DNA of 60,359 nucleotides from Chloroflexota bacterium (lineage in GTDB: Bacteria > Chloroflexota > Limnocylindria > Limnocylindrales > CSP1-4). This document shows, piece after piece, positions 47,818 to 60,131 of the stretch (positions are counted from its first letter, which is position 1; each line of letters opens with the position of its first letter). Location: the NCBI GenBank assembly GCA_003141245.1, contig PLLE01000012.1, positions 1,259 through 61,617 of the forward strand. Direction: 5' to 3'. Below the pieces are notes generated by a model, which made no database searches, had not been told where the DNA came from, and saw only the letters and a list, made by a program, of their open reading frames with translations. A program made the position numbers and the translations under genes.

Positions 47818-49088
47818 CGCCCGACCGTCTGCCTCCGCCGACCGAGCTCCCGTCGCCGGCCGACCCCCGGCCTCCGTCCGACCCTTCAACCGCCGGTTCG
47901 TCGGACCGTTCGTCGGACCGTTCGTCCGACCGTTCGTCCGACCGTTCGACCGAACTCGCCGGCCGGATCCGCGCCGAGATCGAAGGGAAACCCGACCGCC
48001 GGATCACCTTCGCCCGCTTCATGGAGCGCGCCCTCTACGAGCCGGACCTCGGCTACTACCGCCAGTCCGCCGACCGCCCCACCGATGCCGGCGACTTCCT
48101 GACCGCACCCGAGACGCATCCGATCTTCGGTTGGACGATCGCGCGCCGGATCGAGCAGATTTGGGACAAGCTGGGGCGCCCGCGACCATTCACCCTGATC
48201 GAGTATGGTGCCGGGTCGGGGACCCTGGGGCTGTCGATCCTCGAAGGCCTGCGCCGTCACGACTCGACCGACTTGCTCGCGGCGATCCGCTACGAGCCGG
48301 TCGAATCGAACCCGAACCGCCTGTCCGACCTCCGTGAAAGGTTCGAAAGGGCCGGCCTTGCCGAGCTCCTGGCGCTTGCCGGCTCTCCATCGAACGGACC
48401 CGTGCCCGTCATCGGCGTCCTCCTTGCCAACGAGTTCCTCGACGCCCTGCCGGTCCACCGCGTCGTCGCCCGAGACGGCAGGCTACTCGAGCTCTACGTC
48501 GGCTGGCGCGATCGGTTCGTCCAGGAAGCGGCCGAGCCATCGACTCCAGAACTCGCCCGACGCCTGGCGGACGACGGCCTCGACCCGGGCCAGCTCGCCG
48601 AGGGCCAGGTCGCCGAGATCTGCCTGGATCTGGAGCCCTGGCTCGACGAAGTTGGTCGGCGCCTCGCCCGCGGCTTCGTCCTCGCTATCGACTACGGCTA
48701 CCCCGCCGCCGAGATGTACGGCCCGCGCCGCCTCGCCGGCACGTTGCTCGGCTACCGCGGCCACCGCGTGCAGGAGGACCCGTTCGCGGATCCGGGCCTG
48801 ACCGACCTGACCGCCCACGTCGACTTCACCGCGGTCCAGGTACTCGCGGAGCGGCGCGGTCTCCATTCCGTGGCTCTGACCACGCAGTCGGAGTTTCTGA
48901 TCGCCGCCGGCCTGGAGTCGGAGCTGCAGGCTCTCCAGTCGTCGCCCGAAACCACGGCCGAGGCCTATCTGCGCGCCCGCTCCGGCGTCGTCCGCATGCT
49001 CGACCCGCGCCACATGGGCCGTTTCCGCGTCTTGACGCTGGAGCGACGAGGATCCGCGGCTGCCTCCGACTCGCCGGCGGCGCGATAG
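47814..49088 (+). CDS. MidA/NDUFAF7-family SAM-dependent methyltransferase
   Basis: A 424-residue protein. After a disordered N-terminus with an SSDR repeat, the DUF185 domain starts at ~50: ITFARFMERALYEPDLGYY, TAPETHPIFG, the SAM loop IEYGAGSGTLGLSIL, then VIGVLLANEFLDALPVHRV and FVLAIDYGYP. These are hallmarks of the NDUFAF7/MidA family, whose mitochondrial member methylates an Arg of complex I subunit NDUFS2 (the NuoD homologue). The gene lies upstream of the complex I operon on the same strand. Starts at ATG 47814, overlapping the previous stop. Confidence 0.88.
   Translation: MTPDRLPPPTELPSPADPRPPSDPSTAGSSDRSSDRSSDRSSDRSTELAGRIRAEIEGKPDRRITFARFMERALYEPDLGYYRQSADRPTDAGDFLTAPETHPIFGWTIARRIEQIWDKLGRPRPFTLIEYGAGSGTLGLSILEGLRRHDSTDLLAAIRYEPVESNPNRLSDLRERFERAGLAELLALAGSPSNGPVPVIGVLLANEFLDALPVHRVVARDGRLLELYVGWRDRFVQEAAEPSTPELARRLADDGLDPGQLAEGQVAEICLDLEPWLDEVGRRLARGFVLAIDYGYPAAEMYGPRRLAGTLLGYRGHRVQEDPFADPGLTDLTAHVDFTAVQVLAERRGLHSVALTTQSEFLIAAGLESELQALQSSPETTAEAYLRARSGVVRMLDPRHMGRFRVLTLERRGSAAASDSPAAR
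47898..47948 (+). repeat. 12-bp tandem repeat encoding SSDR
   Basis: Four 12-bp units (47898-47909, 47910-47921, 47922-47933, 47934-47945) plus a partial fifth encode SSDR repeats in the disordered N-terminus of the methyltransferase. Units 3 and 4 share a single silent G-to-C change. Confidence 0.85.
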
Positions 49089-49846: not shown

Positions 49847-49969
49847 TGCCGGCGGAAAGCGAGGGAACGGGCATCGAACCCGTCCCCGCCACCGCCACCG
49901 CCCGAGAGCAATGCTCGCGCCCGACGCCGCGGAAGCCTCGCCGCGAACGACAGGCACGGCTGGAGAGTG

Positions 49970-50326
49970 ATGACCGGCATCTGGTACGTGCTTGGCTTGG
50001 CCGCCGCGGGAGTCGGCTTCGTATTCCTCGTAATCGGCCTGGCCTGGCTCATCTCGCACCGCAACCACGGCGACCGCCACAAGGGCATGCCGTATGAAAG
50101 CGGCATCGACACCTTCGGCGACACCTGGGGCCGGTTCGGTGTCTCCTTCTACGTCTACGCCCTTCTCTTCGTTGCCTTCGACGTGGAGGTGGTCTTTCTC
50201 TTCCTGTGGGCGATCGTGTTCCGAAGCCTGCTGCTGGGCGGCCTCGTGAGCATGGGCACCTTCGTGCTCGTGCTCCTGCTCGGCCTGGCCTACGCCTGGC
50301 GGAAGGGAGTCCTGACGTGGCGGTAG
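49970..50326 (+). CDS. nuoA: NADH-quinone oxidoreductase subunit A
   Basis: A 118-residue membrane subunit of complex I with three helices (~5-28, ~60-80, ~88-108). The conserved loop is MPYESGIDTFGDTW, followed by FYVYALLFVAFDVEVVFLFLWA with the Asp/Glu pair in the second helix. ATG 49970 has GGAG 4 nt upstream; GTG 49967 would lie too close. First gene of the operon; overlaps nuoB by 10 nt. Confidence 0.93.
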   Translation: MTGIWYVLGLAAAGVGFVFLVIGLAWLISHRNHGDRHKGMPYESGIDTFGDTWGRFGVSFYVYALLFVAFDVEVVFLFLWAIVFRSLLLGGLVSMGTFVLVLLLGLAYAWRKGVLTWR

Positions 50327-51051
50327 GCGATCGTGACCCGAGGGGCGGCAAGGCGGCGCGGGCTGCCGGAGAAGCGGCCGGGAGCCGGCTCGCACCCCTC
50401 GCTCCGGGCGATCTGACCGCGCCGATAGTCGTCCCGAACACGCTCTGGCAGGCGACCAACCCGCTCGCATACGACGGCGGACGTCCGACCGAGATCACCC
50501 ACCTGCGCGAGTTCGGCCAGACGGAAGCCGGGCGTCGCGACGACCTTCGTTGGGGAGCGCTCCAGATCGTACCCACCAAGGCCGACTACATACTCGATCT
50601 CATCCGGGCGAACAGCCTCTGGCCGCTCCTTTCGGGCCTGGCCTGCTGCGCCTTCGAGATGATGTCGGGCGCCACCAGCAAATTCGACATGGACCGCTGG
50701 GGCATGTTCCCGTTCAGGGCCTCGCCCCGCCAGTCGGACGTGCTAATCGTCGCCGGGACGCTCACGACCAAGATGTCCGGGCCGCTTCTCCGGCTGTGGG
50801 AGCAGATGCCCGAACCCAAATGGTGCGTCGCCCTGGGTGACTGCACCGTTTCGGGCGGCCGCTACAAGCGCAGCTACTCCACGGTCCAGGGGATCGACCG
50901 GATCATGCCCGTAGACGTGTACATTCCCGGCTGCCCGCCCCGGCCCGAAGGGCTGATCTACGGCATGCTTCAGCTCGGTCAGCTCGTCAAGGACCGCCGC
51001 GGCCACTGGGACGAGCGCGAGATCGGCCCCACGGTACCGGACAAGATCTGA
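50317..51051 (+). CDS. nuoB: NADH-quinone oxidoreductase subunit B
   Basis: A 244-residue peripheral-arm subunit carrying terminal cluster N2. Ligands are the tandem Cys 110-111 (LACCAFEMM), Cys 176 (GDCTVSGG) and Cys 206 (PGCPPRPE), all present. The first ~75 residues are an extension beyond the usual ~160-180-residue protein. GTG 50317 has GGGAG 7 nt upstream and overlaps the end of nuoA. Intact N2 means the Q module should work. Confidence 0.93.
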   Translation: MAVGDRDPRGGKAARAAGEAAGSRLAPLAPGDLTAPIVVPNTLWQATNPLAYDGGRPTEITHLREFGQTEAGRRDDLRWGALQIVPTKADYILDLIRANSLWPLLSGLACCAFEMMSGATSKFDMDRWGMFPFRASPRQSDVLIVAGTLTTKMSGPLLRLWEQMPEPKWCVALGDCTVSGGRYKRSYSTVQGIDRIMPVDVYIPGCPPRPEGLIYGMLQLGQLVKDRRGHWDEREIGPTVPDKI

Positions 51052-51054
51052 CCG

Positions 51055-51612
51055 ATGGATCGTTCGCTCAAGCGCCGACTCGAAGCGCGCCTCAGCTCGC
51101 AGCTGCGCGGGCCGGTTCGCCAGCGCCACGATCAGACCGAGATTCGGATCGGGCCGGGCGACGTGCCGGACGTGCTCCGCACCCTGCACGACGCCGTCGA
51201 TCTCCGCTTCGAGATCCTGGCCGACCTGGCCGGCGTCGACACGGGCCAGGAAATGCAGGTCGTGTACCACCTCTGGAGCGAAACCGCCTCGGACTGGCTG
51301 CGTGTGATCGTCGAGGGGATCTCGCGCGACGACCCGCGCTGCCCATCCGCAACCTTCCTATGGATCGGGGCGGAATGGCCCGAGCGCGAGGCCTACGACA
51401 TGTTCGGCATCGTCTTCGAGGGCAACCGCGACCTGCGCCGCATCTTCATGCCGCCCGACTACACCAGCTTCCCGCTCCGCAAGGACTTCCTGCTGCCCGA
51501 CGACGCGGCCCGATCCCCGGGAGCCGGGGTTCGGCACGTCGAGCGACCCCACGCCCCGGCCGTCGTGGCCGGAGATCCCGCGGCCGGCATCCGCCGGGCG
51601 CCGGCGAGCTGA
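51055..51612 (+). CDS. nuoC: NADH-quinone oxidoreductase subunit C
   Basis: A 185-residue 30-kDa-type subunit. The signature is ATFLWIGAEWPEREAYDMFG, then LRRIFMPPDYTSFPLRKDF. The C-terminal ~40 residues (GVRHVERPHAPAVVAG...) are a low-complexity extension. It is a separate gene from nuoD, 3 bp after nuoB. Confidence 0.92.
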   Translation: MDRSLKRRLEARLSSQLRGPVRQRHDQTEIRIGPGDVPDVLRTLHDAVDLRFEILADLAGVDTGQEMQVVYHLWSETASDWLRVIVEGISRDDPRCPSATFLWIGAEWPEREAYDMFGIVFEGNRDLRRIFMPPDYTSFPLRKDFLLPDDAARSPGAGVRHVERPHAPAVVAGDPAAGIRRAPAS

Positions 51613-51620
51613 GGACGGAG

Positions 51621-52979
51621 ATGCCGACCCGCCAGCGTGCCACGCAACCCGACGGTGCCACGCAACCCGACGGTGCCACGCAACCCGCCCACGCCGCCCG
51701 GACCTCGCAGGCTGCCAGAGCCTCGCAAGCCGCCACGGCCAAGGCGCAGCGGCAGAGGCCGCCCGAGCAGTACCGGTCCGACGACGACCCTCGGATCATG
51801 CTCGATCGCGAGGTCGGCGCCGACCTGTTCGAGCCGATCCCTCCGTATCCGGTTCGGACCGAGCGCGAAGCCGAGTTTTACACCCGCGGCGACGGCGAGA
51901 TGTTCCTCAACGTCGGCCCGCACCACCCGGCCACGCACGGCGTCCTGCGCCTCGTCCTCAAGCTCTCCGGCGAGCAGGTCGTGGACGTCGACCCGGTCCT
52001 GGGCTACCTCCACCGCGGCGTCGAGAAGATCTGCGAGAACTCGGACTACTACCACGTCATCGACCAGGTGGATCCGCTCGAGTACGTCAGCTCGCTCTTC
52101 CAGGAGTGGGCGGCCGTGCTCGCGTTCGAGCAGCTCATGGACGTGGAGGTCCCGCCCCGCGCCGAGTACATCCGCGTTCTCACCTCGGAGCTTCTGCGCG
52201 TCTCCAGCCACACCCTCTTCATGGGCTTCCTGGCCCTGGACCTGGGCGGCCTGGCACCCATCCTGTACAGCTTCATCGAGCGCGACGAGATCGTGGAGAT
52301 GCTCGCCGCCCTCACCGGCGCGCGGATGCTCTTCAACTACTTCCGCATCGGCGGCGTCAACGGCGACCTGAACCACGAGTTCCTGAGCCGCCTGGGCGAC
52401 TGGATGAGCCGCGCGGCCAAGCAGACCGAGGCCAACACCGGGCTGCTCAACGAGAACGAGATCTTCGTCCGACGAGCCCGCGGCGTCGGCATCCTGGATC
52501 GGGAGATGGCGCTCCGGTTCGGAGTCACCGGCGGCAACCTGCGCGCCTCGGGCGTGCCCTTCGACGTCCGCCGAGCCCATCCGTACAGCGTCTACCCGCA
52601 GCTCGACTTCAACGTCCCGACTCGTCTGGAAGGGGACTCGCTGGCTCGCTACCTGATCCGCATGGACGAGGTCCGCGAGTCGATCAGGATCATCGACCAG
52701 TGCCTCCACAACATGCCCGACGGGCCGGTCATGGCCAAGCTGCCGCGACTGCTGCGGCCGCGTCCGGGCCGAGCCTGGGGCGCGGTCGAGGGCCCGCGCG
52801 GGATGCTCGGCGTCTACGCCATCAGCGACGGCAGCGACCAGCCGTTCCGCTTCCGCATCCACGACCCGAGCTTCCTGAACCTCGCCGTCGTCCCGTACCT
52901 GCTGCCCGGCAACCTGCTCGCCGACACCATGGCGATCGTCTCATCCCTCGACCCGGTCCTGGGCGGGATCGATAAGTGA
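51621..52979 (+). CDS. nuoD: NADH-quinone oxidoreductase subunit D
   Basis: A 452-residue 49-kDa-type subunit forming the quinone site with NuoB. It has NVGPHHPATHGVLRLVLKLS (the quinone-binding His in GPHHPATHG), the LHRGVEK segment (Arg 132) and a C-terminal SLDPVLGGIDK. The first ~45 residues are a Gln/Ala/Thr-rich extension with an ATQPDG repeat. Arg 132 corresponds to the Arg methylated by NDUFAF7 in mitochondria, and a MidA-like gene lies upstream. Confidence 0.95.
   Translation: MPTRQRATQPDGATQPDGATQPAHAARTSQAARASQAATAKAQRQRPPEQYRSDDDPRIMLDREVGADLFEPIPPYPVRTEREAEFYTRGDGEMFLNVGPHHPATHGVLRLVLKLSGEQVVDVDPVLGYLHRGVEKICENSDYYHVIDQVDPLEYVSSLFQEWAAVLAFEQLMDVEVPPRAEYIRVLTSELLRVSSHTLFMGFLALDLGGLAPILYSFIERDEIVEMLAALTGARMLFNYFRIGGVNGDLNHEFLSRLGDWMSRAAKQTEANTGLLNENEIFVRRARGVGILDREMALRFGVTGGNLRASGVPFDVRRAHPYSVYPQLDFNVPTRLEGDSLARYLIRMDEVRESIRIIDQCLHNMPDGPVMAKLPRLLRPRPGRAWGAVEGPRGMLGVYAISDGSDQPFRFRIHDPSFLNLAVVPYLLPGNLLADTMAIVSSLDPVLGGIDK
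51639..51692 (+). repeat. 18-bp tandem repeat encoding ATQPDG
   Basis: Two perfect 18-bp units (51639-51656, 51657-51674) and a third diverging in its last part (51675-51692) encode the N-terminal extension of NuoD. Confidence 0.88.
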
Positions 52980-52989
52980 GGGCCATCCG

Positions 52990-54336
52990 ATGACCTTCGC
53001 GACCCGCACCTGGGACCGTATGTCCCTGACCTCGCGGCTCGTCGCCATTCTGGTGCCGCTGGCCTTGATCCTGGCGGTGGGTAGCGTCGTCGGGATCCTC
53101 GTGATCCTGCCGGCGACGATGGACTTCCTGCGGGCGAACCTGCCGCTGGTGCGTTTCGCCGTCGCGGTCGTGGGGATCCTGGTCCTGACGATCCCGACGG
53201 CCTTCGTCCTGATCTATCTGGAACTCAAGATCATCGCCCGCATGAACCTGCGGGTCGGCCCCAATCGGATCGGGCCGTGGGGCGCGGCGATGAGCCTGAT
53301 CCACGGCTTCAAGGTCCTCTCCAAGGAGGACTTCACCCCGACCGGCGCCGATCTGCCGGTCTTCACCCTGGCCCCGGTCGTGACCTTCCTGGCGAGCGTC
53401 ATGACCCTGCTGGTCATTCCGTTCGCGCCCGGGCTCTTCGGCCAGGACTTGAACATCGGCCTGCTCTACTTCTTCGCCATGGGCGGCCTCTCGGTCCTGG
53501 GCCTGCTGATGGCCGGCTGGGCGAGCTTCAACAAGTACTCGCTCCTGGGCGGGCTCCGCGCGGCGGCGCAGATCGTCAGCTACGAGATCCCGCTGACCCT
53601 CTCCGTCGTGGGCGTGGTCATCCTGGCCGGCACGATGAGCATGAACCGCCTGGTCCTGGCCCAGTCCGGCTCGGCCCTCGACTGGTTCGCGTTCAAGCAG
53701 CCCCTGGCGGTGCTCATCTTCTTCATCGCCGCCACGGCCGAGGCGAACCGCACCCCGTTCGACATGACGGAGGCCGACTCGGAGATCGTGGCGGGCTTCG
53801 CCACCGAGTACTCGGGGATGCGCTTCGGATTCTTCTTCTTCGCCGAGTACGTGAACGTCTTCATCGTCTCGGCGCTGCTGGCGACGCTCTTCTTCGGCGG
53901 CTGGACGGCCCCCTTCAACTGGCCCTGGCCGTACAACCTCAACTGGCTGGACGCGTCGGGGATCGGCGTGCTCTGGATCCCCATCGCCATCATCGCCACG
54001 GTCGTCGTGGCCGACGTCGTCGCGGTCGCCGTCCGCCTGGTCGGCGGCAGGAGCTGGTCCGCCCCGAGCGCCTTCGGTCTGGGCTTCCTCGCCGCCGGAG
54101 TCGGCATCGCGGCCGTGGTCGGCCTGGCCTGCTTCATCGCCTTCGACTGGGTCCAGGGCATCTTCTGGTTCATGACCAAGACCTACGTCTTCGTCTTCAC
54201 CTTCGTCTGGATGCGCGGAACGCTGCCGCGCGTCCGGGTCGACCAGCTGATGGGCTTCGCCTGGAAATGGCTGCTGCCCGCTTCGCTTCTCAACCTGTTC
54301 GTGACGGCTACCGCCGTCGTCCTTCTCAACCAGTGA
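52990..54336 (+). CDS. nuoH: NADH-quinone oxidoreductase subunit H
   Basis: A 448-residue membrane subunit that couples the quinone site to proton pumping. It has LIYLELKIIARMNLRVGPNR (helix 1 end and loop), ANRTPFDMTEADSEIVAGF (acidic loop) and MRGTLPRVRVDQLM near the C-terminus. About 9-10 helices. The N-terminal ~60 residues hold an extra helix. Intact, so quinone reduction and coupling are expected. Confidence 0.95.
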   Translation: MTFATRTWDRMSLTSRLVAILVPLALILAVGSVVGILVILPATMDFLRANLPLVRFAVAVVGILVLTIPTAFVLIYLELKIIARMNLRVGPNRIGPWGAAMSLIHGFKVLSKEDFTPTGADLPVFTLAPVVTFLASVMTLLVIPFAPGLFGQDLNIGLLYFFAMGGLSVLGLLMAGWASFNKYSLLGGLRAAAQIVSYEIPLTLSVVGVVILAGTMSMNRLVLAQSGSALDWFAFKQPLAVLIFFIAATAEANRTPFDMTEADSEIVAGFATEYSGMRFGFFFFAEYVNVFIVSALLATLFFGGWTAPFNWPWPYNLNWLDASGIGVLWIPIAIIATVVVADVVAVAVRLVGGRSWSAPSAFGLGFLAAGVGIAAVVGLACFIAFDWVQGIFWFMTKTYVFVFTFVWMRGTLPRVRVDQLMGFAWKWLLPASLLNLFVTATAVVLLNQ

Positions 54337-54343
54337 GAGCGCG

Positions 54344-55159
54344 ATGAGCTTCATTCCGGGCCTGGGCATCGCAAAGGGGATGGCGCTGACGCTGCGCCGT
54401 TTCTTCCAGCCGAAGGCCACCATCCAGTACCCCGAAACGACCCCGGACATCGCGGTTCGCTTCCGCGGCCGGCTCCAGCTCCTTTACGACGAGTTCGGCA
54501 ACCTCAAGTGCGAGACCTGCTTCCAGTGCGCGCAGGCCTGCCCGGTCGAGTGCATCGACATGGGCGGGCACGACACGAAGAACCGCTTCTACACCCACTG
54601 GGGCCCGGCCGAGACGTATGGCGAGCGACGCGAAGAGTCCGCCCTGCGGCGCTCGGGCCGGCCGGTGCCCGATCAGGCCTTCGTCCACTTCGAGCCGATC
54701 GACCTGGTCGCGGTCGAGCAGATCCTGGAGCGGCGCGACTACGACCCGGGCGAGATGCTGCCGATCCTCGAGGAGGTCCAGGCCGCGTACGGCTACCTCC
54801 CGGTCGCCGCGATCAAGCACATCAGCCATGTGACCGGCGCCTCGTACGCCCTGGTCTACGGCACGGCGACCTGCTACGGCCACCTGAGCTTCGAGCGCCG
54901 GGCCCGAACGATCGGCGTCTGCCGCTGCACCAGCTGTCTGCTGGCCGGGTCCGGCCGGATCGCGACCGCCATCGGCGAGGGCCTGGGGACGAAGCTCGAC
55001 GGCGCGCCCGTCGGCGGCGTCGCCCTCCAGCAGCTCCCCGCCCACCTCCCCGGCGCGGCGTCGCCGCTCGTGACGCTGGACGGCAAGCCGCAGACCGACG
55101 TGACCGAGAGATCCGCCGCCGTATGGAGCCGCTCCCTGGCACGGAAGACCGTGGCATGA
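54344..55159 (+). CDS. Fused NuoI-like and NuoE-like subunit with missing cluster motifs
   Basis: A 271-residue fusion. Residues 1-110 are NuoI-like (ALTLRRFFQPKATIQYPE), with one 4Fe-4S motif C56-C59-C62-C66 (CETCFQCAQACP). The second motif expected after it is absent; sequence jumps to the post-motif tail (ERREESALRRSGRPVP). Residues ~118-250 are NuoE-like (thioredoxin fold): EILPILEEVQ-type helix, VYGTATCYGH and VCRCTSCLLAGS (C193, C198; C195 extra), but the second C-x3-C pair is replaced by LPAHLPGAAS. So at most part of the usual FeS set can form. It overlaps nuoF by 4 nt. Confidence 0.82.
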   Translation: MSFIPGLGIAKGMALTLRRFFQPKATIQYPETTPDIAVRFRGRLQLLYDEFGNLKCETCFQCAQACPVECIDMGGHDTKNRFYTHWGPAETYGERREESALRRSGRPVPDQAFVHFEPIDLVAVEQILERRDYDPGEMLPILEEVQAAYGYLPVAAIKHISHVTGASYALVYGTATCYGHLSFERRARTIGVCRCTSCLLAGSGRIATAIGEGLGTKLDGAPVGGVALQQLPAHLPGAASPLVTLDGKPQTDVTERSAAVWSRSLARKTVA

Positions 55160-56529
55160 CCAACGCGAACCTCCTCCCAACGCCCGAGAAGTGGCCGCAC
55201 CTGCTGCTGCCCGCGGCCAGCGCCGAGCTGGCGGCCGGGGCGGCGGCTGGGGCTGGGGCGGCGAATCCCGCCGACCTGGACGCCGCCGTCAAGGCGGGCG
55301 CCTTCGCCGGCCTGACCGAGGCCATCCGCGGCATGACCGCCGGCGAGATCGTGGCGGCGCTGGCCAGGTCCGAGCTGCGCGGCCGCGGCGGAGCGGGCTT
55401 CCCCACGAGCGAGAAGTGGCGCGCCTGCGCCCTGGCCCAGGCCGACCGCCACTACGTCGTCGTCCACGCCTACCAGGCCGATCCGGCCGTCTTTACCGAT
55501 CGCGTGCTGCTGGAGCGCAATCCTTTCGCGGTTCTCGAGGGAGCGGCCATCGCCGCCGTCGCTGTCAGCGCGTCTGAGATCGTCGTGGCGATCCGGGCCG
55601 AGGCCACGGCAGCCATCGCCGTGCTGGAGGCCGCGATCGCCGCGGCCGAGCACGCGGGCTACCTCGGCGAAGACGTCCTGGGCAGCGGCCGCGAGATCCA
55701 CGTCGAGGTCAAGCCGCTCCAGGGCGCGTACATGCTCGGCGAGGAAACGGTGCTGCTCAAGGGCATCGAGGGCAAGCGCGGCCAGCCCGAGCAGCAGCCC
55801 CCGTACCCCACGACCCGCGGCCTGTACGGCCGGCCGACGCTCGTCCACAACCCGCAGACCCTGGCCGTCATCCCGGGCATCATCACCGGCGGCCCCGGCA
55901 CGCACTCCGCCGCCGGATCGGCGCACGGCCAGGGCACCGTCCTGGTGCAGATCTCCGGCTCGGTCGCCAATCCGGGCCTGGCCGAGGTGCCGCTGGGCAC
56001 GCCGCTGGGTGAGATCGTGGCCCTGGCCGGCGGCGTTCCCGCGCCGCATACCCTCAAGGCCCTGCTCGTGGGCGGACCCTCGGGCGGAATCCTGCCGCCT
56101 GACGCCGAGAAGATCGCCTACCAATTCGAAGCGCTCGAGGCGGCCGGCGCCCACATGGGCTCCGGGTCGATCGTCGTGATCGACGAGCGCAGCTGCCTCG
56201 TCGATCTCGCCTCCGTGCTGACTCGTTTCTGCGCCGATCAGGCTTGCGGCAAGACGATCCCGTGCCGGATCGGGCTGCGCCGCCTGGCGGAGATCGGGGC
56301 GCGGATCTGCGAGGGCCAGCCCCGAGACGACGAGATCGTCCGCCTGACGGATCTCTCCGCCGACATCGTGGCCAGCCGCCTGTGCGACCACGAAGGCCGC
56401 TCCACCCTGCCTCTCCTGAGCATCGTCCGGTACTTCCGCGACGAGCTCGACGCCCACATTCTCCGCAGCACCTGCCCCGCCGGGATCTGCCATCCGATGG
56501 CAACCTCCCGTCCCGGGGCCGTCTCCTGA
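55156..56529 (+). CDS. nuoF: NuoF-like subunit with degenerate NADH site and N3 cluster
   Basis: A 457-residue 51-kDa-type subunit. The FMN loop LRGRGGAGFPTSEKW (74-88) is kept. The NADE-x-EPG motif is replaced by HAYQADPA (104-111); YICGEETAL is YMLGEET (193-198); NNVET is HNPQT (231-235). The N3 cluster motif CGKCTPC reads CGKTIPC: C364 and C370 remain, the middle Cys is Thr 367, and the distant Cys is C410. The fold (SLBB region ~265-330) is preserved. NADH oxidation here is doubtful; it may be structural or altered in specificity. Overlaps the fused gene before it by 4 nt. Confidence 0.85.
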   Translation: MTNANLLPTPEKWPHLLLPAASAELAAGAAAGAGAANPADLDAAVKAGAFAGLTEAIRGMTAGEIVAALARSELRGRGGAGFPTSEKWRACALAQADRHYVVVHAYQADPAVFTDRVLLERNPFAVLEGAAIAAVAVSASEIVVAIRAEATAAIAVLEAAIAAAEHAGYLGEDVLGSGREIHVEVKPLQGAYMLGEETVLLKGIEGKRGQPEQQPPYPTTRGLYGRPTLVHNPQTLAVIPGIITGGPGTHSAAGSAHGQGTVLVQISGSVANPGLAEVPLGTPLGEIVALAGGVPAPHTLKALLVGGPSGGILPPDAEKIAYQFEALEAAGAHMGSGSIVVIDERSCLVDLASVLTRFCADQACGKTIPCRIGLRRLAEIGARICEGQPRDDEIVRLTDLSADIVASRLCDHEGRSTLPLLSIVRYFRDELDAHILRSTCPAGICHPMATSRPGAVS

Positions 56530-56537
56530 GGCATCCG

Positions 56538-59234
56538 ATGCGAGAAGCGACCCGCCGCCCCAGCCCGAGCGCTCCGCCCGCTCTTCCGAGCCCGTCCGCG
56601 AGCGCGTCGATGACGCCGCCGGCCGTCGTTCCCGGACCCCTGCCGGTCCAGGCACCTGCTCCGTCCGTGACTGGCCTCAAACCCGCCGCCAACGAGAAAC
56701 CGGTCTGGAACCGCAAGGCCGGCCGGGTCGACAGCCGCCCCGACTCGAAGGCGCCGCGCGACACGGTCACGCCGATCGACGACTCGCCCGAAGAGCGGCT
56801 CATCACGACGCAGAGCCCGCAGCGCCCGCTCTCGACGCCGACCATCAAGCTCCAGATCGACGGCCGCGAGGTCATCGGCATTGAGGGCCAGACGATCCTG
56901 GAGGTCTGCCGCGACAACGGCATCGACGTCCCGACGCTCTGCTACGAGCCCAAGCTGCCCGGCTTCGGGGCGTGCCGCATGTGCGTCGTCGAGATCGCGG
57001 GTGAGGACCGCCCGGCGATCTCGTGCGCCCGCGCCGCCGCCACGGGAATGGTCGTCCAGACCCAGACCGAGGAGGTGCGCCGGCTGCGGCGCACGAACCT
57101 CGAGCTGATCTTCAGCGACCACAACGCCTACTGCCTGCCGCCCTGCCAGAACAAGTGCCCGAGCCACATCGACATCCCCGGCTTCCTCAAAGCCAACGCC
57201 GAGGGCAAATTCCGCGAGTCGGCGCGAATCTTCAAGCGTACGATTCCGTTCCCCTCCATCCTGGGGCGTGTCTGCCCGGCGCCGTGCGAGGAGCACTGCC
57301 GCCGCGACGAGGTGGACGAGGCGATCGCCATCCGCGACAGCCACCGCTACGCCGGCGACATCGTCCTGGCGGCCCAGGAAGACGGCATCGAGCCGCCGCT
57401 GCCCTTCGAGGCGCAGCCCGCGACGGGCAAGCGCGTGGCCATCGTCGGCTCCGGCCCCGCCGGCATGGCCGCGGCCTACTACCTGCTCCTGTCCGGCCAC
57501 CACGTGACCGTCTTCGAGCGCGACGCCGCCCCCGGCGGGATGCTCCGCTACGGCATCCCGGAGTACCGCCTGCCCAAGGCCGAGGTGCTCGAGCCCGAAT
57601 ACGAGGCCGTCTGGCGGCTGGGCGCGAAGCTGGAGCTCAACCAGGAGCTGGGCCGCGACTTCAGCCTCGACGACCTGCGCGACCGGGGCTTCGACGCCAC
57701 GATCGTCGCGACCGGCTGCTACGAGACGAACAAGATCGGCGTCCCCAACGACACCGCCGAGGGCGTCATCGAAGGCCTGGACTACCTGCGCATCGCCACG
57801 TTGGGCCTGCCCTACCCGGGCCACGCCGGCAGCCGGGTCGTCGTCATCGGCGGCGGCTTCACCGCCATGGACTGCACGCGCACCTCGATCCGCCAGGGGG
57901 CGAGGGAAGTCACCCTCGTCTACCGCCGTGACATGAAGGACATGCCCGCGGCCAGCGAGACTCACGAGGCCATGGAAGAGGGCGCGAAGATGATCTTCCA
58001 GGCAGGCCCGACACGCGTCCTGGTCGACGCCCGCAACCGTGTCGCCGGCGTCGAGTTCATTCGCATGCGCCCCGGCGCTCCGGACGCCTCCGGCCGGCGC
58101 CGCCCCGAGCCGGCGCCCGGAACCGAATTCGTCGTCGAATGCGATCGCGTCCTGCTCGCCATCGGCCAGGGCCCCGACCTGTCGTGGATCGGCCCCGGCA
58201 ACGAGGACGTCGAGGCCGTCAAGTGGAAGCTCAAGGCCGACGCGGTGACCTTCGAGACCGGCCGGCCCGGCGTCTTCGGCGCCGGCGACGTCCGCATCGG
58301 CGCCGCGACCGTGGTCCAGGCGATCGCCGAGGGCCGCCGCTGCGCCTACGCCGCGGACGCCTACCTGCGCGGCATGGACCTCTCCGAGCTGCGATCCCGC
58401 GAGCCGCTGGTCGAATGGGACCCTGGCTTCCTCTCGATCGTCCCCTATACGGACGAGGTCAAGGAGCCTCGCCATCGCCTGCAGGCGATGCCGGCGGAGG
58501 AACGCACCAGGAGCTACGTCGAGTACGAGATCCCCTACACCCAATCCGAGGTGATGGCCGAGTCGAGCCGCTGCCTGCAATGCACCTGCGAGGCGATCGG
58601 CTACTGCGACCTGCGCAACCTGGGGATCGAGTACGGAACCACGCTCAAGACCCTGGAGCCGGGCCATGACGAGGGTGCCGGCTTCCGCAGCGTCACCGAG
58701 AACCGCTTCACCGGCACCAATCACGACTACGTCCGCGACGACAGCCACGCCTTCATCCTGCGCGAGCCGTCGCGCTGCATCGACTGCGGGCGTTGCGCCG
58801 CGGTCTGCGCCGACGTCGTCGGCGCGGCCTGCTACGACTTCATGCGCATCGGCTTCGACACGCTGGTGACGACGCCGCTCGACATGAGCCTCAACGACAC
58901 GCCGTGCGTCTCCTGCGGCCGCTGCGCCGAGACGTGCCCGACGGGCGCGCTCATGCTCAAGCCGCGCGTCCTGGAGAAGTACGACGTCGACGAGAGCCGC
59001 TGCATCCTGTGCGGCATCTGCGTGGACGCGTGCCCGTACGACGCGCTCCGCGGCGGCCCGGACAACGAGCTCGCCCACACCGACCGGTCCGAGCCGATGA
59101 TCGATCTCATCGGCCTGGCGGCGATGGCCGGCGAAACCGAAGTCACCTACATAGCGCGCGAGCGCGACTGGATGGCGCACGCCGTGGCCGACGGTCGACT
59201 CGCGGCCGTCGCCACCCCCGGCGACGGAAAGTGA
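56538..59234 (+). CDS. 2Fe-2S/GltD-type flavoprotein/polyferredoxin in place of NuoG
   Basis: An 898-residue protein. Residues 1-100 are a disordered extension. A 2Fe-2S domain follows (C135, C146, C149, C163: LCYEPKLPGFGACRMC). Then a GltD-type FeS segment (C199, C203, C207, C246, C250, C254: GRVCPAPCEEHC) and two Rossmann folds: FAD loop GSGPAG (304-309) and NAD(P) loop VVIGGGFTAMD (~436). The C-terminus has CLQCTC (~678), CIDCGRCAAVC (~747), CVSCGRCAETCP (~790) and CILCGICVDACP (~822). The molybdopterin-like domain of NuoG is missing. It resembles NuoG/FdhA-like or StnC/NfnB-like oxidoreductases and is likely the NAD(P)H entry point. Confidence 0.85.
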   Translation: MREATRRPSPSAPPALPSPSASASMTPPAVVPGPLPVQAPAPSVTGLKPAANEKPVWNRKAGRVDSRPDSKAPRDTVTPIDDSPEERLITTQSPQRPLSTPTIKLQIDGREVIGIEGQTILEVCRDNGIDVPTLCYEPKLPGFGACRMCVVEIAGEDRPAISCARAAATGMVVQTQTEEVRRLRRTNLELIFSDHNAYCLPPCQNKCPSHIDIPGFLKANAEGKFRESARIFKRTIPFPSILGRVCPAPCEEHCRRDEVDEAIAIRDSHRYAGDIVLAAQEDGIEPPLPFEAQPATGKRVAIVGSGPAGMAAAYYLLLSGHHVTVFERDAAPGGMLRYGIPEYRLPKAEVLEPEYEAVWRLGAKLELNQELGRDFSLDDLRDRGFDATIVATGCYETNKIGVPNDTAEGVIEGLDYLRIATLGLPYPGHAGSRVVVIGGGFTAMDCTRTSIRQGAREVTLVYRRDMKDMPAASETHEAMEEGAKMIFQAGPTRVLVDARNRVAGVEFIRMRPGAPDASGRRRPEPAPGTEFVVECDRVLLAIGQGPDLSWIGPGNEDVEAVKWKLKADAVTFETGRPGVFGAGDVRIGAATVVQAIAEGRRCAYAADAYLRGMDLSELRSREPLVEWDPGFLSIVPYTDEVKEPRHRLQAMPAEERTRSYVEYEIPYTQSEVMAESSRCLQCTCEAIGYCDLRNLGIEYGTTLKTLEPGHDEGAGFRSVTENRFTGTNHDYVRDDSHAFILREPSRCIDCGRCAAVCADVVGAACYDFMRIGFDTLVTTPLDMSLNDTPCVSCGRCAETCPTGALMLKPRVLEKYDVDESRCILCGICVDACPYDALRGGPDNELAHTDRSEPMIDLIGLAAMAGETEVTYIARERDWMAHAVADGRLAAVATPGDGK

Positions 59235-59274: not shown

Positions 59275-59823
59275 ATGCCGATAGGCGACACGGTCCCGCT
59301 TACGGCGATCCGCTGGGACGACATCTTGTTCGTCGTGCTGGCGGCGATGCTCCTGGGTTCGGCGCTGCTGGTCGTGACCATGCGCGACATCATTCGCTGC
59401 GGTCTGGCGATGATCGCCGCGTTCGCGTCCCTGGCCGGCATATACGTCCTGCTCGGCAATCCGCTAATAGCGGCCACCCAGGTCCTGGTCTACATCGGCG
59501 CGATCAGCGTCCTGGTCCTGTTCGCGATCATGCTGACCCAGACCAAGAACGCCCCCGCTCGACTGGTCTTCCAGACTCAGGCCTGGGCGGCGGCCCTGGC
59601 CGCGGTCGTGATCGCGGCGGTCATCGCCATCAGCGTCACAGCCACGACCTGGCCCTCCGCCGGCGCCGTGGCCTGGACCGACACCACCAGGGTCGCCGAG
59701 CTGCTCTTCAGCGACTATCTCCTGCCGTTCGAGGTCGTGAGCGTGCTGCTCACCGCCGCCGTCGTGGGTGGGGTTCTGCTGGCCAGGCGCGATCCCGATG
59801 AGAACGAGGAGGATCGACCGTGA
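59275..59823 (+). CDS. nuoJ: NADH-quinone oxidoreductase subunit J
   Basis: A 182-residue membrane subunit with five helices. [20 protein letters not shown] and [20 protein letters not shown] carry the helix-3 Gly/Tyr features of NuoJ. It begins 40 bp after the NuoG-like gene and overlaps nuoK by 4 nt. Membrane module appears intact. Confidence 0.92.
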
Positions 59824-60131
59824 GCGGTTCGCTCGACTCCTACCTGGTCCTCTCCGGCCTGCTCTTTGCGATCGGCACCTTCGGCTTCCTGGGCCGCCGC
59901 AACGCGATCAGCATGCTCATGTCGATCGAACTGATGCTCAACGCGGTGAACCTGACCGTCGTCGCGTTCGGGGCCTTCGTGAAGCCGCTCCAGACGCACG
60001 CCGCGGTGATCGCCCTGCTCGTGATCGCCGTGGCGGCCGCCGAGGCCACGGTCGGTCTGGCGATCGTCATCGCGATCTATCGGAACCGCAAGACGCCTCT
60101 CGTCGACGAATACGACTCGATGAGCGAATGA
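59820..60131 (+). CDS. nuoK: NADH-quinone oxidoreductase subunit K
   Basis: A 103-residue membrane subunit with three helices. Conserved acidic residues lie in [14 protein letters not shown] (Glu of helix 2) and [14 protein letters not shown] (Glu of helix 3), both needed for proton pumping. GTG start, overlapping nuoJ by 4 nt. Confidence 0.95.

Follow-up and report, generated by a model that had tools for sequence, protein, structure and literature searches.

Closest described systems

Respiratory complex I is usually described either as an enzyme that oxidizes reduced nicotinamide adenine dinucleotide (NADH) or as a form that has lost its NADH module. The operon considered here lies in a 60,359-nucleotide stretch of a Chloroflexota genome of the order Limnocylindrales (GenBank GCA_003141245.1, contig PLLE01000012.1, positions 1,259 to 61,617; hereafter the window). 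It has retained the NADH module and lost that module's NADH site, while a second flavin domain close by is intact, and so offers a natural test of input-module swapping. From the sequence we consider it probable that the window encodes a proton-pumping complex I in which electrons now enter at the NuoG position rather than at NuoF, which is kept as a scaffold.

The nearest solved relatives of the GltD-bearing NuoG protein of the window (GltD-NuoG) are the large subunits of Nfn-ABC (E 1e-163) and Stn (E 1e-143). Like the window complex, the Stn/Nfn-ABC enzymes (Sporomusa ovata StnABC, T. litoralis Nso and Caldicellulosiruptor Nfn-ABC) have a NuoG-GltD third subunit with sites for flavin adenine dinucleotide (FAD) and NADP(H), together with NuoE- and NuoF-like partners, and that third subunit also has the motifs HxxxCxxxCxxxCP and CxxCxC, which were described for Nso and Stn (PMC7483475). 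In StnC electrons pass from NADPH to FAD and on through clusters C7-C3, and C7, the [4Fe-4S] cluster nearest to FAD, has Lys170 as its non-Cys ligand (PMC10482914). Stn, however, is a soluble bifurcating enzyme that has an N1a-type cluster and an intact NuoF-like flavin mononucleotide (FMN)/NADH site, both of which the window complex has lost. The Lys ligand of C7 is replaced here by His and the FdhF-like domain of Stn by half of a NuoI protein, and the GltD-NuoG module is found here inside a complex I operon.

In the Geobacter-type Nuo-Bfu complex, with BfuABC for NuoEFG, a module of the HydABC/Stn family likewise replaces the NADH module in mid-cluster, but the window complex differs in having no NADH site, a GltD domain and a split NuoI. 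Other complexes I that have abandoned NADH are that of Campylobacter jejuni, which uses flavodoxin (PMC4178425), and the 11-subunit forms (PMC11238625). The C. jejuni complex resembles ours in that NADH is unused and NuoE and NuoF function is lost; there, however, NuoE and NuoF are replaced by Cj1574 and Cj1575 and the donor is flavodoxin, whereas the window complex keeps a degenerate NuoF beside a GltD flavoprotein. With the canonical 14-subunit complex I of E. coli and other Chloroflexota the window complex shares NuoA, B, C, D, H, J, K, L, M and N and the N2 cysteines (the window itself holds NuoA-B-C-D-H and J-K, and nuoL-M-N come next in relatives with longer contigs). Of the two, it is the canonical enzyme that has the NADH motif, N1a, the fourth N3 ligand, an intact NuoI and a GltD-free NuoG. 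No description of an NADPH- or GltD-linked complex I in Chloroflexota was found in an open-access library, which does not prove novelty.

The NuoF protein of the window

The NuoF gene and its three altered sites are:

55156..56529, + strand: degenerate NuoF, 457 amino acids, with PF01512, SLBB and NADH_4Fe-4S domains
55465..55488, + strand: HAYQADPA (residues 104-111), replacing N92-A-D94-E95-x-E97-P-G
55846..55860, + strand: HNPQT (residues 231-235), replacing NNVET
56245..56265, + strand: CGKTIPC (residues 364-370), the N3 motif with its second Cys changed to Thr

An earlier note on this DNA had reported these three replacements and an unchanged FMN loop, RGRGGAGFPT, and all four can be read in the 457-residue open reading frame (ORF), whose start overlaps the preceding ORF (I/E, a NuoI-NuoE fusion) through ATGA. 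A domain search detected only the three domains listed, PF01512 with an E value of 2e-35; the NCBIfam NuoF models also match, with scores far under their curated cut-offs. Canonical NuoF proteins have NADE-x-(E/D)PG, including Asp94 and Glu95, and a four-Cys N3 site; the window protein has Tyr-Gln at the former and three Cys at the latter. Glu95 of complex I NuoF is strictly conserved, and Glu97 touches the nucleotide via water (PMC6560083).

The overall fold appears to be retained along with the FMN loop. An AlphaFold2 model of the protein (predicted local distance difference test [pLDDT] 85.5) has as its best Foldseek matches chain B of Nfn-ABC, Stn and HydB, followed by complex I NuoF, with template modelling (TM) scores of 0.78-0.87 to NuoF/StnB structures. 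Because the model fits both the StnB/Nfn-B/HydB and the NuoF chains, the NuoF fold is predicted to be intact.

Distribution and conservation of the variant NuoF

A search of 61 genomes of the order, apparently Limnocylindrales, found an ortholog of this NuoF in 56, at 46-83% identity. Among the closest public matches are Chloroflexi CSP1-4, GWC2_73_18, and metagenome-assembled genomes from fen, groundwater and lake, and matches under 47% identity lead to clostridial HydB-type proteins at about 41%. We compared 65 variant sequences, 48 of them from the order and the rest from other lineages, residue by residue with 21 reference NuoF/HydB proteins. Asp94 is present in all 21 references and in none of the 65 variants, where it is Tyr, Phe, Ile or Met (Tyr in 52 of 65; within the order, Tyr 42, Phe 4, Met 1, Ile 1). 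Glu95 is mostly gone: 18 of the 48 sequences of the order keep it, and no variant from elsewhere does. The Cys preceding GEET is lost from every variant, and the first Asn of NNVET from most. Not all of HAYQADPA is a replaced motif, as had been claimed: the loss of Asp94 stands, but the Asp of 'ADP' is no loss, position 97 being Asp in 13 of the 21 references, as is normal for HydB-type proteins. The His in place of Asn92 is a peculiarity of six sequences.

At the N3 site the second Cys is Thr, Ser or Ala in 53 variants and Cys in 12, and the first, third and fourth are present in all 65 (within the order, Thr 41, Ser 5 and Cys 2 at the second position, the other three Cys 48/48). A selective loss of function at both the NADH and the N3 sites is thus borne out for the NADH site and for one N3 ligand, but N3 is probably altered rather than lost. 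With the middle Cys of CxxCxxC as the only one missing and the remaining three invariant, N3 more likely holds a three-Cys cluster, perhaps [3Fe-4S], than none, judging from general ferredoxin chemistry.

Sister families also carry the variant. One family of the same class (seven genomes) has CGKAVPC and has lost Asp94; another (also seven genomes) has lost Asp94 and has a four-Cys CAICVPC or CGICVPC, with NuoB, NuoD, I/E, NuoF and GltD-NuoG together and NuoH on another contig. A comparison of close relatives, which had been proposed as a check, shows that the variant is shared by the order and by sister families; the canonical motif was looked for at the same locus among relatives and was not found. 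Certain relatives of the window's genus have a decayed FMN loop as well (RGRGFPGV, RGRGRGGV, RGRSGSGL). A tree of 50 NuoF-like proteins resolves three well-supported groups, one of canonical NuoF with relatives (support 95/94), one of HydB with relatives and one of the variant (100/98 for each of the latter two), and so places the variant in a clade of its own, apart from both others. These comparisons indicate an old, clade-wide state not confined to the window gene.

Constraint has also shifted between subunits. Pairwise identities were taken across the variant operon and, for comparison, across six canonical Chloroflexota operons (the pairs share genomes and are thus non-independent). Variant NuoF is 18.6 ± 5.3 identity points lower than GltD-NuoG and 9.0 ± 5.2 points lower than NuoH, and its conservation is also below that of NuoB and NuoD, whereas canonical NuoF is 6.6 ± 3.2 points higher than NuoG and 5.9 ± 3.8 points higher than NuoH. 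The NuoH comparison is the cleaner one, NuoG and GltD-NuoG being different proteins. By this measure variant NuoF is less conserved than GltD-NuoG, the opposite of what is seen in canonical complexes.

The GltD-NuoG subunit, the NuoE remnant and the split NuoI

The two ORFs that flank the NuoF gene carry the following features:

54344..55159, + strand: I/E, the N-terminal half of NuoI fused to a NuoE remnant
54377..54580, + strand: NuoI first half, TIGR01971 positions 1-67, with one CxxCxxCxxxCP
56538..59234, + strand: NuoG-GltD fusion of StnC/NsoC type with the C-terminal half of NuoI at its C-terminus; start at 56538 or 56610
57342..57344, + strand: His aligned with StnC Lys170, invariant (from alignment and conservation)
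57447..57464, + strand: GSGPAG, FAD binding, GltD domain
57849..57929, + strand: GGGFTAMDC...VTLVYRR, NADP(H) binding, GltD domain
58965..59102, + strand: NuoI second half, TIGR01971 positions 71-116, YDVDESRCILCGICVDACP, at the C-terminus of the GltD-NuoG ORF

GltD-NuoG has the NuoG-GltD fusion and the FAD and NADP(H) motifs that mark the Stn/Nfn-ABC third subunit, and both of the Cys motifs HxxxCxxxCxxxCP and CxxCxC. Its identity across the order is 72-88%, against 47-83% for NuoF, and full-length homologs at 46% identity or more occur in about 34 of 151 sampled genomes of the phylum. Wherever the stretch is covered, the variants retain the GSGPAG-type FAD motif, the equivalent of StnC Arg239, GGG...YRR and the Cys motifs, the sole exception being a frame-shifted locus (L065); retention was counted on complete loci, several truncated ones being without the C-terminal motifs. 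The position of StnC Lys170 is His in all variant GltD-NuoG proteins.

In its second half I/E has the thioredoxin-like domain of NuoE (PF01257, E 1e-16), with VCRCTSC retained. The second Cys pair of N1a, part of the four-Cys set of canonical NuoE, is missing from it and from all aligned I/E proteins, and 8 of the 18 order relatives compared lack the C-terminal half of NuoE altogether. On this evidence cluster N1a has been lost from NuoE. Canonical NuoI has both CxxCxxCxxxCP motifs on one polypeptide; here the halves lie on two ORFs, and a TIGR01971 profile search of the genome found no full-length NuoI above cut-off. In relatives, and also in one sister family, E. coli NuoI is likewise matched across two ORFs. 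Such a split would be unusual, with a 2[4Fe-4S] ferredoxin fold divided over two subunits.

Proposed route of electrons and alternative explanations

In the arrangement that we favor, NADPH would reduce the FAD of the GltD domain, and electrons would pass from the GltD clusters to the NuoG wire, as in StnC, before reaching quinone by way of the split NuoI and then N2 on NuoB. NuoF would no longer oxidize NADH but would remain as a structural cap, its N3 cluster no longer serving as an entry relay. The motifs predict an enzyme that couples the oxidation of NADPH to quinone reduction and to proton pumping; the reverse direction, in which quinol and proton-motive force would drive formation of NADPH, is equally allowed by the anatomy. 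The earlier note had suggested a scaffold between the GltD-like subunit and the rest. Scaffold is the best reading of NuoF, but the position was wrong: NuoF or StnB sits on NuoG or StnC in complex I and Stn, so the GltD-bearing subunit would lie between NuoF and the rest, with NuoF at the distal end.

A more specific proposal, which we advance tentatively and which is slightly more apt to be wrong than right, is that a natural proton-pumping NADPH:quinone (or quinol:NADP+) complex I with entry at the GltD FAD, a scaffold NuoF and a two-polypeptide NuoI is widespread in Chloroflexota. If so, Chloroflexota of soil, aquifers and fresh water would have a direct coupling of their NADPH pool to the proton-motive force. 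The 'NADH dehydrogenase' annotations in these genomes probably name the wrong substrate.

Several points weigh against entry at the GltD domain. NuoF may still bind FMN, since the majority of the variants retain Glu183/184, the Thr of NNVET and most of the FMN loop. In Stn the electrons of GltD go towards NuoF and FMN, whereas a turn to NuoI is assumed here. The preference for NADP over NAD is read from motifs, and the proposed activity from sequence rather than biochemistry. Finally, the AlphaFold2 model of GltD-NuoG, built from a 14-sequence alignment, has a pLDDT of 45 and was not used for cluster geometry.

The same conserved residues would be expected if NuoF were still a redox subunit that keeps FMN and whose reshaped pocket, with Tyr for Asp94, takes flavodoxin, ferredoxin or another small carrier. 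The G-rich loop, a Lys, Glu183/184 and the Thr are kept in most variants, position 94 is Tyr in 52 of 65, three N3 Cys are invariant, and there is a precedent in C. jejuni Cj1574/Cj1575 with flavodoxin (PMC4178425). We nevertheless regard this as unlikely, given that N1a is gone from NuoE, that decay has reached even the FMN loop in certain relatives of the window's genus, and that this NuoF is less conserved than NuoB, NuoD, NuoH and GltD-NuoG.

The conservation of GltD-NuoG bears on a further possibility, that both nucleotide sites of the complex are relic or minor and that reduced ferredoxin is the donor, entering at the clusters of GltD-NuoG or of the split NuoI. Ferredoxin has likewise been proposed as donor for cyanobacterial NDH-1, and the 11-subunit complexes are thought to accept ferredoxin-type donors (PMC11238625); the genome also encodes [FeFe]- and NiFe-hydrogenase modules and a by-eye candidate for a 2-oxoacid:ferredoxin oxidoreductase. 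The FAD and NADP(H) motifs of GltD are, however, conserved throughout, unlike those of a relic, and GltD-NuoG is the most conserved subunit of the N-module. We rank this idea next and likewise think it unlikely.

An enzyme of the Bfu family, like Stn or Nuo-Bfu, that bifurcates or confurcates electrons with NADH, ferredoxin and NADPH or menaquinone together was considered and rejected as highly improbable. Its third subunit would be StnC-like, as here, HydB/StnB-type chains are the nearest solved relatives of the variant NuoF, and Nuo-Bfu complexes have been described for Geobacter (PMC9304861). The variant, however, has neither the N-terminal thioredoxin nor the C-terminal ferredoxin domain of HydB and no NADH motif, and the NuoE part is without N1a, the A1 cluster of Stn/Nfn-ABC, whose loss abolishes bifurcation in Stn. 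Recent, functionally meaningless decay or a sequencing error in one genome can be dismissed, as can chance, since independent genomes, 56 of the 61 from the order and others from sister lineages, show the same state, with open frames and ordered conservation.

Remaining genes of the operon

The other complex I genes of the window are:

49967..50326, + strand: NuoA
50302..51051, + strand: NuoB, with the tandem CC and other N2 cysteines; true start uncertain
51055..51612, + strand: NuoC
51621..52979, + strand: NuoD, without NiFe-hydrogenase cysteine motifs
52990..54336, + strand: NuoH, 448 amino acids, with extra N-terminal and internal segments
59275..59823, + strand: NuoJ
59820..60131, + strand: NuoK; the contig ends soon after

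As in respiratory complex I, Q- and P-module genes lie in one operon, and NuoB has the N2 CC motif. A NiFe-hydrogenase identity for the NuoB/NuoD pair was ruled out on this motif and on the absence of hydrogenase motifs from NuoD. The additions to NuoH are an N-terminal extension of about 50 residues and a hydrophobic internal insertion of about 90; they are common to the order and absent from the sister family and from E. coli. Just 5' of nuoA (47850-49088, + strand) is a gene for a MidA/NDUFAF7-like methyltransferase (PF02636, E 1.5e-54), the mitochondrial relative of which methylates the NuoD homolog in complex I assembly (PMC3829151). A MidA-like frame, read by eye from the translation, also lies 3' of GltD-NuoG in two sister-family loci (L226, L227).

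Other NuoF-like proteins in the genome and the phylum

The operon is the only complex I found in the genome, since NuoD and NuoH are each encoded by one gene, profile-matched as two adjacent stretches; a second, canonical complex I was searched for in this assembly, estimated to be 92% complete, and was not found. The genome has two other PF01512 proteins, one in a HydCBA [FeFe]-hydrogenase and the other a HydB-GltD fusion beside a NiFe-hydrogenase. Because their NADEGDPG/NGDEGDPG motifs and four-Cys N3 sites are canonical, both would retain the NADH site. The locus of the fusion protein (L005, G000:C14:40000-55807) also has a NiFe-hydrogenase large subunit, and the fusion, with its canonical NADH motif, adjoins a NuoG-like protein.

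In other Chloroflexota families a related cluster, B-I/E-F-GltD-NuoG, combines NAYDADP (or NAYDADL) with a four-Cys N3. One genome with such a cluster (G124), followed in detail, encodes a separate, canonical complex I in addition, and at three loci (L220, L221, L222) nuoB-I/E-F-GltDG stands alone, without a recognizable nuoD alongside. Such a stand-alone cluster could be a second input arm. A further PF01512 paralog in Chloroflexota (L223, L224, L225, L229, L231) has N(G/A)(A/S)EGEP, and QCGPC in place of CGKCxPC.
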